20,889 nucleotides of DNA from a virus: the IMG/VR virus record IMGVR_UViG_3300048800_000179, positions 1 through 20,889 of that record. One strand, written 5' to 3'. The position numbers were made by a program, and so were the translations under genes. Shown piece by piece: positions 11,253 to 20,889 of the stretch. Every line of letters starts with the position of its first letter. The stretch's first letter is position 1. The notes below the pieces were generated by a model. The model ran no database searches. It saw nothing but the letters and a program-made list of their open reading frames with translations, and was not told the origin of the DNA.

Positions 11253-11600
11253 CTACTCCGCTGCATCGCTGGCGCTCTGCTCTGGCTCCCTGTCCGTCGC
11301 TGGTGCACTGACTGCCCTTGCCAGTGCGGTCAGCCTGGCCGCGCCGAGGGCCTCAATGATCTTGTCCAGCGTCCTGTAGTCCAAGGTGGATGCGAGCTCG
11401 GGATGCAGGATGACGGCCGCGACCACCCGCTCGTCGACGAGGCTCTCAAGGGCGTTCTCGACCGCCTCCCCAAGGCGTCGACTTGGATAGGCGTGGCCGT
11501 TCTCAAACTGCGAAAGCGACTGACGGCAGACACCTGAGCGCTTTATGAGTGTTTCCTGAGAGATGCCTAGTAGTTCACGGCAGATTCTGACGCTCTTCAC
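11253..11600 (-). CDS. XRE-family helix-turn-helix regulator
   Basis: 115 residues. Residues 1-50 form a lambda-repressor-type HTH: 'ICRELLGISQETLIKRSGVC' then 'RQSLSQFENGHAYPSRR', with the recognition helix around SRQSLSQFENG-like residues 26-36. The rest is Ala/Glu-rich and helical, perhaps for dimerisation. There is no S24-type peptidase domain, so it is not a full cI-type repressor. The start is GTG 11600. No Shine-Dalgarno precedes it, but a TTGACT-N17-TACATT promoter ends six bases before the GTG, so the mRNA is probably leaderless, as for lambda cI from PRM. It is the first gene of the terS-terL-portal operon and may regulate its own promoter and thus packaging genes. Confidence 0.88.
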   Translation of the reverse strand: MKSVRICRELLGISQETLIKRSGVCRQSLSQFENGHAYPSRRLGEAVENALESLVDERVVAAVILHPELASTLDYRTLDKIIEALGAARLTALARAVSAPATDREPEQSASDAAE

Positions 11601-11602
11601 AA

Positions 11603-11690
11603 GACAAATGTAGATTTTCCTTGGCGACGAGTCAAGTGGGTGACGATCTAATCCTTACGCTGACTTGGCGTCAAACATCCTACATCTGTC
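11603..11690. promoter_or_regulatory. Candidate operator elements upstream of XRE gene
   Basis: An 11-base inverted repeat with one mismatch lies at 11603-11613 (GACAAATGTAG) and 11680-11690 (CTACATCTGTC); the left arm overlaps the -10 box. Two related minus-strand elements lie between them: TTGACGCCAAG (11674-11664) and TTGAC-TCGTC-GCCAAG (11635-11620), the second including the -35 box. The layout suits an autoregulated promoter, but binding is not shown. Confidence 0.4.
11607..11635 (-). promoter_or_regulatory. Sigma70-like promoter of the XRE/packaging operon
   Basis: On the minus strand, TTGACT (11635-11630), a 17-base spacer and TACATT (11612-11607). Six bases separate the -10 box from GTG 11600, which would put the transcription start at the start codon. 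Confidence 0.65.
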
Positions 11691-15112: not shown

Positions 15113-15183
15113 GTGCCTTCCTCCTCATTCACAAGTTCATCGTCTGCCAGGCGCGCGGCCTCGGAGAGTGCGGCGCTGGCTGG
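15109..15183 (-). pseudogene. Duplicated 3' end of the gene at 15705-15914
   Basis: A minus-strand frame after a TAG (15186-15184) codes for a 24-residue tail ending AARLADDELVNEEEGT and a stop in an ATGA overlap with ATG 15112. No start codon exists for it. Its 26-base core (15134-15159) is identical to the end of the gene at 15705-15914, which ends AARLADDELKEED. In both copies the Glu-rich tail codes for the GAGGAGG Shine-Dalgarno of the following gene. It reads as a copied gene end kept for its ribosome site. Confidence 0.6.
15134..15159. repeat. 26-bp direct repeat, copy 1
   Basis: Identical to 15721-15746, in the same orientation and 587 bases apart. It codes for ARLADDEL at the end of two different reading frames. 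Confidence 0.9.
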
Positions 15184-15272: not shown

Positions 15273-15377
15273 TCAGGCGATCTGAGCAATACGCCTGCCC
15301 ATCGGTAAGCCCAAACGGTGCGCTACACGTTCGCGCGCTTCTGCCTTCCGCTGGGCCGGGGTCTTGGGGTCGGTCAT
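15273..15377 (-). CDS. Tiny basic protein sharing its start with the gene at 16105-16401
   Basis: 34 residues from ATG 15377, in an ATGA overlap with the gene before. The sequence begins MTDPKTPAQRKAEARER and is strongly basic. Its first 34 bases match the first 34 bases of the gene at 16105-16401 (MINSKTPAQRK) with four transitions. After the shared start the two diverge and this copy soon stops. The -1 frame stays open across it and on to 15184, with protein-like sequence (GLTDGQAYCSDRLIPVSQLS) but no start codon of its own. So this may be a truncated or frameshifted gene and not a real 34-residue product. Confidence 0.45.
   Translation of the reverse strand: MTDPKTPAQRKAEARERVAHRLGLPMGRRIAQIA
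15344..15377. repeat. 34-bp direct repeat, copy 1 (gene start)
   Basis: Matches 16368-16401 at 30 of 34 positions, all differences being transitions. Both copies cover the ATG and the TPAQRK codons of a small gene. Confidence 0.85.
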
Positions 15378-15704: not shown

Positions 15705-15914
15705 TCAATCCTCCTCTTTCAGTTCATCGTCTGCCAGGCGCGCGGCTGCCACTTGATTTTGCACAGCCGAATTGTATCTGTCGATTACGGCGGAGCACTC
15801 GTCCTGCCACGCCTGCCAATCTCGCGTTGGCGCATTACACGGGAGAGCGTCTAGCGCGGCCCGTGCCAAACGGTAGCGCTCGCTGGCCTCGCGGAGTCGC
15901 TGGGCGCGTGTCAT
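15705..15914 (-). CDS. Small helical protein, 69 residues
   Basis: ATG 15914 overlaps the previous stop (ATGA). The composition is all-helical: MTRAQRLREASERYRLARAA, then DWQAWQDECSAVIDRYNSAV, ending in an acidic tail ARLADDELKEED. It is amphipathic, rich in Arg, Ala and Glu, and could form a helical hairpin. The last codons contain GAGGAGGA, the ribosome site for the next gene. The same tail is duplicated at 15109-15183. Function unknown. Confidence 0.8.
   Translation of the reverse strand: MTRAQRLREASERYRLARAALDALPCNAPTRDWQAWQDECSAVIDRYNSAVQNQVAAARLADDELKEED
15721..15746. repeat. 26-bp direct repeat, copy 2
   Basis: Perfect copy of 15134-15159; it codes for the ARLADDEL tail of the 69-residue protein. 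Confidence 0.9.
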
Positions 15915-16108: not shown

Positions 16109-16401
16109 GTTCCCGCCCTCCCGGTGAGGAGCTTGCGAATGCATTCCAACAGTATCGGATTGTTGAAGTTCTCCTTGTGCAGTTCGATGCAATGGTCGAT
16201 GTACTCCAGCGCAGGCGCCACGGCCTCGTCGATGCAGGCGCGGGCATGGGCGTCGAGTTCATCGAGGAGCGCGCCACGTGTATGCCATCTCCCACTTTCG
16301 ACCAGTGCCACCACCTTGCTTCTGGCCAGTATGGTGGCCGACTGCTTGGCGAGTTGGTCTAGTTCCACCTTCCGTTGGGCCGGGGTCTTGGAGTTGATCA
16401 T
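16105..16401 (-). CDS. Hypothetical helical protein, 98 residues
   Basis: ATG 16401 lies one base after the previous stop. The N-terminus MINSKTPAQRKVE shares its DNA with the tiny gene at 15273-15377. The rest is helical, with SATILARSKVVALVESGRWH in the middle and HARACIDEAVAPALEYIDHC plus a Cys/His-containing helix later. The Cys and His residues are scattered and do not make an obvious zinc site. It ends in a GTGA overlap with the next gene. Function unknown. Confidence 0.8.
   Translation of the reverse strand: MINSKTPAQRKVELDQLAKQSATILARSKVVALVESGRWHTRGALLDELDAHARACIDEAVAPALEYIDHCIELHKENFNNPILLECIRKLLTGRAGT
16368..16401. repeat. 34-bp direct repeat, copy 2 (gene start)
   Basis: Partner of 15344-15377. 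It covers the ATG and first ten codons of the 98-residue gene. Confidence 0.85.
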
Positions 16402-19131: not shown

Positions 19132-19488
19132 CTACTCGCAGCCGCTCATGCGGTCGTAGCAGTTCGGGCAGCTAGTGCCGAGCGAGGCGCTCATGACCTG
19201 CGCGCGGGCAACGCTGTGGCCGCACGAGCAGCGAACCAGGGCAACCATGGCAGGCTCCGAAACCGGGGCGGGAGTCAGTCTGATTTGCTCGTACCAATCG
19301 GTACCGTAGCGCAGCGATTTGCCAGCCTCTAGAGCCGCCGCAACCTGGTCGCGTGTCATTTTGTGGTAGGCCATGCACTCGGTCAACCGAGCCTCTGGGC
19401 TCGCGCCGAAATCGCTGGAGTCGTTCCATCGGCCGGCTGCGTTCATTGTTTCGAGGTTCCGCGTGGTCGCTGTGTTGTTTGTTTCCAT
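19132..19488 (-). CDS. Hypothetical zinc-ribbon protein, first gene of small-gene operon
   Basis: 118 residues. The N-terminus is Asn/Thr-rich (METNNTATTRNLETMNAAGR) and is followed by an acidic helix (GASPEARLTECMAYHKMTRD). The C-terminus is a clear four-Cys zinc ribbon: CSCGHSVARAQVMS then CPNC. Such proteins recur in phage operons and may bind nucleic acid. ATG 19488 lies six bases after a GATAAC -10 box, so the transcript may be leaderless or nearly so; an AGGA is present but too close to the ATG to act normally. It is the promoter-proximal gene for the series down to 13064. Confidence 0.8.
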   Translation of the reverse strand: METNNTATTRNLETMNAAGRWNDSSDFGASPEARLTECMAYHKMTRDQVAAALEAGKSLRYGTDWYEQIRLTPAPVSEPAMVALVRCSCGHSVARAQVMSASLGTSCPNCYDRMSGCE

Positions 19489-19494
19489 GTCCTA

Positions 19495-19523
19495 GTTATC
19501 TCACGGTTGAGTTTCGCGCGCAA
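19495..19523 (-). promoter_or_regulatory. Promoter/operator of small-gene operon
   Basis: TTGCGC (19523-19518), 17-base spacer, GATAAC (19500-19495), then six bases to ATG 19488. The -35 part carries the 12-mer TTTCGCGCGCAA (plus-strand 19512-19523), which is repeated at the same place in the promoter at 19788-19816. Confidence 0.55.
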
Positions 19524-19562
19524 GAGAAAAGACGAGTGTCCATGTCGATTTCTAGAAGCGCG

Positions 19563-19781
19563 TCAAGTGCCAGGTTTCTCGGGCAATCCGATGCGCGAGC
19601 GCAGCCAGGCGGCAAACGGCTTGCCGGGAAGCTCGCGCGCGGCAGCGCCTTGACGGTCGTATTTCTCGGCCTCTGTGCAGTGGGCTCCGAGCCAGAAGAA
19701 ACGCTTTTGCCCTTGGGGATTCTTCGGGCGGCCGCGTTTGGCAGGGGTTGCGGCCGCGCTGGTACTTTTGGTTTTGCTCAT
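19563..19781 (-). CDS. Small basic DNA-binding-like protein (ribbon-helix-helix-like)
   Basis: 72 residues from ATG 19781. The N-terminus is Ser/Thr/Lys-rich with RGRPK, an AT-hook-like patch. A strand-like RFFWLGAHCT is followed by two helices (EAEKYDRQGAAARELPGK and PFAAWLRSRIGLPEK). This matches by eye the 'strand, helix, .aWlR' plan of small ribbon-helix-helix regulators (Arc/MobC type). The gene lies behind a TTGCGC-N17-TACCGA promoter with the -10 box six bases before its ATG. A related promoter drives the next operon, so it may be an autoregulator of both; this is inference. Its ribosome site (GGAGG) touches the ATG directly and is badly placed. Confidence 0.7.
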   Translation of the reverse strand: MSKTKSTSAAATPAKRGRPKNPQGQKRFFWLGAHCTEAEKYDRQGAAARELPGKPFAAWLRSRIGLPEKPGT

Positions 19782-19787
19782 CCTCCA

Positions 19788-19816
19788 TCGGTAGCACGAT
19801 ACGATTTCGCGCGCAA
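19788..19816 (-). promoter_or_regulatory. Promoter/operator of the RHH-like gene
   Basis: TTGCGC (19816-19811), 17-base spacer, TACCGA (19793-19788), six bases to ATG 19781. It shares TTTCGCGCGCAA (plus-strand 19805-19816) and a CGTG at the same offset with the promoter at 19495-19523. Confidence 0.5.
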
Positions 19817-19825
19817 TCCTTTTGC

Positions 19826-20299
19826 TTGACAATCGAGCGCCGGGCGGAGACGGGCGACACGCTGCGCACCGACGAGCACGAGCCCGAGTGTGGCGAGGAT
19901 TTCTGCGACGTTTGCGGCGACTGCTTGGCCTGCTACGGCGGAGACCCATGCTGCCCAGACGGAACCGACAGGAGCGCGCACAGGTGGATCCGCCACGAGT
20001 CGGCGGCGGCCAGCATGATCGCCGTGCTGCGCGGGCCGTGGACTGCGTCCGAGAGCAATTTCGCCACGGCGGACGGCACTTCCATCCTCGACAACCCCGC
20101 ATTGATGGAGGCCGTCGTACTGCTGCCAGAAATCTGCGAGAGCCTGCAATCGGTCGCGCAGTATCGCGTATTCGGCGACAACCAGCGCGGGGATGCGGTT
20201 GTGCGCGAGGCCGCGGCGCTGCTGAAAAGGATTCGGGGCACAAGGAGTCTCGGGCCGTCCAGCCCCGTCTCGCTCAGGTGGTTATGTTGGTGGTTATGA
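19826..20299 (+). CDS. Cysteine-rich phage protein
   Basis: Up to 157 residues; the start is uncertain. I give TTG 19826 as the first usable start in frame, without a clear ribosome site; a downstream CTG (about 19862) is another option. Near the N-terminus lies ECGEDFCDVCGDCLACYGGD, then PCCPDGTDRSAHRW. This dense Cys cluster is a recurring 'C.edfCd.CgdClaCYg.dPC' pattern in phage unknowns and suggests two zinc sites. The C-terminal half is helical, with NPALMEAVVLLPEICESLQS and VAQYRVFGDNQRGDAVVREA. It runs opposite to both neighbours. The coding call rests on these patterns. Confidence 0.7.
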   Translation: MTIERRAETGDTLRTDEHEPECGEDFCDVCGDCLACYGGDPCCPDGTDRSAHRWIRHESAAASMIAVLRGPWTASESNFATADGTSILDNPALMEAVVLLPEICESLQSVAQYRVFGDNQRGDAVVREAAALLKRIRGTRSLGPSSPVSLRWLCWWL

Positions 20300-20768: not shown

Positions 20769-20797
20769 TTGACTTTCTAGATGTCAAGCCATATCCT
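20769..20797 (+). promoter_or_regulatory. Sigma70-like promoter with operator-like inverted repeat
   Basis: TTGACT (20769-20774), 17-base spacer, TATCCT (20792-20797), just before ATG 20800/20809. The TTGAC...GTCAA inverted repeat at 20769-20787 covers the -35 box and most of the spacer, the usual place for a repressor site. Confidence 0.6.
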
Positions 20798-20799
20798 AC

Positions 20800-20889
20800 A
20801 TGGGTGCCATGCAAAAGGAACAGACCGCGCAGAACGCCGCAAGGCGCCTAGAAGACCACGTTTCGCACCATGGGTGTGCGGCGGAATCC
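20800..20889 (+). CDS. 5' end of a gene running off the window
   Basis: The frame from ATG 20800 (MGAMQKEQTAQNAARRLEDH, then VSHHGCAAES) is open to the window end. The expected transcription start (about 20804) lies between the two ATGs, so ATG 20809 (MQKEQTAQ...) is the likelier start, with a leader of a few bases. It is helical and polar. Being first behind a promoter with an operator-like repeat, it may begin a rightward early operon. Too short to identify. Confidence 0.5.
   Translation, partial: MGAMQKEQTAQNAARRLEDHVSHHGCAAES

Follow-up and report, generated by a model that had tools for sequence, protein, structure and literature searches.

Two adjacent transcription units close to one end of a phage genome fragment are each preceded by the same 12-base word at the same distance from their first ATG, which raises the question of whether a single regulator controls both of them. 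The sequence-only reading of this locus held that the two words belong to a pair of matching sigma-70 promoters under one regulator, perhaps the ribbon-helix-helix (RHH)-like product of one of the two units.

The window, by which we mean the whole stretch of DNA analysed, is an entire IMG/VR virus record of 20,889 bases and 62% GC, and is itself a fragment. Besides the large terminase and the likely portal protein, it encodes a long series of small genes, every one of them in minus-strand orientation. The closest relative found is a 5.9-kb fragment whose terminase and portal are 85–88% identical to those of the window, and the portal is common to about 28 further contigs at 48–59% identity; the relatives have only packaging genes in common with the window, and a homologue of the promoter region is not among what was found in them. 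When the portal relatives (L008–L035) were searched for the 12-mer motif and for the products of both genes that follow it, none was found, and one genome scan with the portal alignment gave as its sole cellular match a fen Armatimonadetes metagenome-assembled genome (MAG) at 37% identity. If shared control of the two units is real, it would offer a first way into the gene regulation of an uncultivated phage group that has no well-annotated relative. The features that place the locus are as follows.

8907–7225, minus strand: likely portal protein
10479–8935, minus strand: large terminase of a tailed phage
19132–19488, minus strand: 118-aa gene, head of the small-gene operon, with a C-terminal CxCGH...CPNCYDRMS
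19512–19523, minus strand: site A, the 12-mer TTGCGCGCGAAA, at −35 to −24 from the A of the ATG of the 118-aa gene
19563–19781, minus strand: 72-aa gene, the RHH-like protein of the sequence-only reading and a candidate regulator
19782–19825: divergent intergenic region of 44 bp, holding site B
19805–19816, minus strand: site B, the 12-mer TTGCGCGCGAAA, at the same distance from the ATG of the 72-aa gene
19826–20299, plus strand: divergent gene of about 157 aa, found by codon score, TTG start uncertain

A repeated word in register before two genes

The 12-mer occurs exactly where it had been described, before the 72-aa gene and before the operon that the 118-aa gene leads, and its plus-strand form is TTTCGCGCGCAA at 19512–19523 and 19805–19816. 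Each copy ends 23 bases before a minus-strand ATG (at 19488 for the 118-aa gene and 19781 for the 72-aa gene), and both lie in short non-coding gaps between genes. A search for further copies, which the earlier reading had itself proposed as a check, left just these two exact occurrences in the 20.9-kb window, where 0.003 would be expected, and no copy in 301 kb of related phage DNA, where 0.04 would be expected.

The window is rich in exact 12-mer repeats, with 84 of them against 23–38 in Markov sequences, so the repetition of this word alone means little. The shared register is much rarer. Taking 80 upstream bases at each of 36 gene starts, we asked how often two starts would share an in-register exact match of at least 12 bases by chance, and this happened in 3 of 400 Markov trials and in 2 of 400 trials using random real sites; the observed pair shares 12 bases, and the next best pair in the window shares 8. 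Such a recurrence of one word at one promoter position, more exact than chance would give, is what a shared operator should show. Two copies are few, and this counts against such a reading.

The word is near-palindromic (TTkCGCGCGmAA, with 10 of 12 bases symmetric), and at site B it falls within a longer plus-strand dyad, GATTTCGCGCGCAATC, that is symmetric at 14 of 16 bases, the equivalent stretch at site A being symmetric at 10 of 16. To judge from its letters, the dyad symmetry of GATTTCGCGCGCAATC would fit an operator, with the caveat that a GC core by itself makes some symmetry likely. Outside the word the two sites have little in common. Counted directly, 8 of the 23 positions that separate the 12-mer from the ATG carry the same base at both sites, which is about the chance level, and the CGTG that had been singled out at an equal offset in both spacers is part of this near-chance agreement. 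Because the flanks are alike no more than chance would make them, a recent duplication of one site to give the other is not supported.

The sequence-only reading had no gene upstream of site B on the other strand. Codon scores trained on the clear genes of the window show that plus frame 2 is coding from about 19826 to 20299, with a total of +15.5, and that it is the best frame at each step from 19800 to 20100, so that site B is divergent. The product of this gene has a cysteine-rich start, CDVCGDCLACYGGDPCC, with no family match, and it is weakly similar (E 6e-3) to a Tunturiibacter phage protein.

Promoter hexamers and leaderless geometry

The word had been read as providing the −35 box, TTGCGC, of two promoters in which 17 bases, a −10 hexamer and six further bases lead to the ATG. 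The arithmetic of this arrangement is correct at both sites; the −10 boxes were not confirmed, and neither site has a pair close to TTGACA and TATAAT. TTGCGC shares with TTGACA only its TTG, a 3/6 match at both sites, and the two downstream hexamers, with the promoter of a regulatory gene elsewhere in the window for reference, are these.

19495–19500, minus strand: GATAAC, candidate −10 of site A, a 4/6 match to TATAAT, six bases before the ATG
19788–19793, minus strand: TACCGA, the −10 proposed earlier for site B, a 2/6 match without the final T
11607–11635, minus strand: TTGACT-17-TACATT, reference leaderless promoter, six bases before the GTG at 11600, without the 12-mer
11253–11600, minus strand: 115-aa HTH_3 (XRE-type) regulator, an alternative candidate for the DNA-binding protein

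GATAAC is a weak to fair −10 that lacks the first and last T of the consensus. When a sigma-70 matrix was applied to all 1340 ATG and GTG codons of the window, site A fell in the top 1.6% and site B in the top 10%; with this rank and its 2/6 match, TACCGA was rejected as a −10 box. A consensus promoter scan of the window reported neither site. Since site B has no acceptable −10, and the flanks are alike only by chance, the description of the pair as two matching sigma-70 promoters is not supported.

A promoter of some kind at site A is nevertheless expected, because homologues of the 118-aa gene have a strong one. Three distant phages carry a promoter of the TTGACA-17-TATAAT type before the homologue, 37–91 bp upstream and with normal Shine–Dalgarno sites; well-placed Shine–Dalgarno sequences are absent at the ATGs of both the 118-aa and the 72-aa genes. 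The 118-aa protein belongs to a small phage protein family (window 19132–19488; L004–L007 and L206) that ends in CxCGH...(S/A)CPNCYDRMS. The CxCGH...CPNCYDRMS end is conserved in four other phage contigs, and it is probably a zinc ribbon; searches of Pfam, PHROGs (E 0.01) and NCBIfam gave no match for the family.

The six-base distance has a different meaning from the one first given to it. In bacterial leaderless genes the start codon follows the beginning of the TANNNT motif by about 12 bp (PMC3160421), a geometry reported in high-GC groups among others (PMC3160421; PMC12340547). We surveyed sigma-70-like sites (TTG..., 16–18 bases, TANNNT) in the window and about 30 related-phage loci, and found that start codons peak six and seven bases downstream, with seven and six cases respectively against 0–2 cases at nearly all other distances. 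The peak disappeared when the sequences were reversed or the −10 was scrambled, while a scrambled −35 left three cases at distance 7. The promoters of this spacing precede some phage small genes and some transposase-like genes, so that the leaderless start looks like a habit of the host too. If true, the finding would also show that these phages use leaderless promoters, a help when gene starts are assigned in phages of this kind.

The promoter of the HTH gene is the textbook leaderless form, its −10 TACATT conforming to TANNNT, and together with several related-phage promoters it fits the published leaderless genes exactly. Sites A and B have the same six bases from −10 position to start as the leaderless genes described generally (PMC3160421), in Deinococcus–Thermus (PMC12340547) and in Mycobacterium (PMC3898074), but unlike those genes their hexamers, GATAAC and TACCGA, lack the invariant T of TANNNT, which counts against a leaderless reading. 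So does a GGAGG that abuts the ATG at site B, an odd feature for a leaderless start. The fixed distance is real at both sites, and since leaderless or near-leaderless initiation, the geometry of this phage group, accounts for it, it is no argument for a common regulator.

What the word may do

The proposal of one regulator for both units survives in part: its support comes from the register, the rarity and the non-coding position of the shared site, and not from the spacing to the ATG. Some regulatory role shared by the two copies of the 12-mer, either as the operator of a repressor or as the box of an activator, is in our view probable. The narrower reading, that it is a near-palindromic operator in the −35 region of two leaderless or near-leaderless promoters under one regulator, is one we hold with about even confidence.

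Under this narrower reading one operator-like site would stand once before each of the adjacent units, which are the 72-aa gene and the operon that begins with the 118-aa gene. In both units transcription probably begins at the ATG or a few bases from it, and numbered from such a start the 12-mer would occupy −35 to −24. By binding the word, a protein would sit over the −35 region and adjust the two promoters jointly, the simpler guess being that it represses them; from site B the divergent gene on the plus strand might come under its influence as well. A shared operator would be an ordinary kind of feature here, a view that is moderately well supported, and one operator word at two promoters is a well-known principle. 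Phage repressor–operator systems such as that of lambda use one operator word at several promoters near the regulator gene. The present locus resembles them in that two promoters around a small gene, one of the two in a divergent region, have a near-palindromic word at matching positions, and differs from them in that the regulator is only a candidate, that each promoter has a single copy, and that no repressor is recognised in the small gene.

The two sites flank the 72-aa gene, so its product is a natural candidate for the binding protein, an assignment that is plausible though less likely than not, a host protein or another phage protein being the alternative. The protein has no Pfam, NCBIfam or PDB sequence match, there is no fold match for its model, and no RHH family appears in Pfam or NCBIfam even at E 5; its one weak match is to a PHROG of unknown function (E 0.031). 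The model, of low confidence (pLDDT 63, pTM 0.21), has two helices at 37–49 and 55–64. A fuller scenario, in which a new small 72-aa regulator binds a new 12-bp near-palindromic operator serving a pair of leaderless units and a third, divergent one, as a lysis–lysogeny or early-gene switch of this uncultivated phage group, must be regarded as a long shot.

Competing readings of the two sites

These readings overlap, and our confidences in them are not meant to sum to one. The earlier proposal that the 72-aa protein is an RHH repressor controlling its own gene draws on the flanking position of the two sites and on the helices of the model, which lie where the RHH pattern needs them; with no family, PDB or fold match, a model of such low confidence and a clear HTH_3 regulator also encoded in the window, we find it doubtful. 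Another way to account for the poor hexamers is that the 12-mer is the box of an activator or alternative sigma factor, standing in for the −35 and required for transcription. Such a box would explain both the weak −35 and the weak −10, as in promoters that need help, and leaderless transcripts would place the 12-mer at −35 to −24. T4 middle promoters likewise have a conserved word, the MotA box, where TTGACA would otherwise form the −35. MotA-type promoters keep a good −10, however, which is missing here, and no MotA-like protein, nor any other activator or sigma factor, was found among the window genes examined, so that we rate this reading as quite improbable.

It is also conceivable, but in our view rather unlikely, that site B belongs to a promoter of a different register. 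Of the sigma-70-like matches up to 45 bp from the start of the 72-aa gene, TTGTCA-17-CGAAAT scores highest, with 7.8 bits against 0.6 for the TTGCGC pair, and the 12-mer lies across its spacer and −10; the word would then be an operator in that position, the transcript would have a short leader with the GGAGG, and the equal distance to the two ATGs would be partly coincidental. Against this, its own −10, CGAAAT, is poor (0.9 bits), and a GGAGG adjoining the ATG is badly spaced. Coincidence may account for the whole pattern, as a GC-rich word recurring at equal distance from two ATGs: GC-rich repeats are common in the window, as its 84 repeated 12-mers indicate, and the finding was picked by eye and after the fact. 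We nonetheless think chance an unlikely explanation, given how seldom the null trials produced an in-register match of this length (three and two in 400), the location of both copies in non-coding gaps and the rarity of the word in the phage group.

The word elsewhere in viral DNA and further observations

A viral collection was scanned for the 12-mer with an ATG 8–38 bases downstream. The first scan showed a conspicuous excess of hits with a gap of 23, which was discarded as promoter evidence since nearly all of it comes from one conserved coding sequence that reads in frame as ...APEGRPFAREN...AMERWNG. With that sequence excluded, a second scan gave 30 copies at the exact distance, 29 of which are inside long coding frames or have no gene-like open reading frame after the ATG; only one, in L051, lies between genes, which counts against the operator reading. 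In this unrelated phage of 22% GC, a GC-rich island at 1860–1907 has the 12-mer, then TAGATT, six bases and an ATG, and the gene that begins there, of 359 aa, resembles a DNA methyltransferase in sequence. The word is single-copy in the 46-kb record, and we judged it a coincidence or an unrelated element.

Some further observations concern the window and its relatives more generally. The HTH_3 gene lies just upstream of a 257-aa gene and the terminase. On the plus strand at 20769–20809, TTGACT-17-TATCCT has ATGs at 20800 and 20809 directly behind it, a near-leaderless arrangement, and the frame from these ATGs stays open past the end of the window. At L198:17860–18190 a TnpB-like gene has a leaderless start, and its promoter and upstream stretch are doubled about 300 bases apart, with masked N following the first promoter copy. 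Finally, exact repeats of at least 16 bases join 15134–15159 to 15721–15746 and 15352–15367 to 16376–16391; they sit between small genes of the operon, at the ends and starts of neighbours, and suggest internal gene duplication within it.
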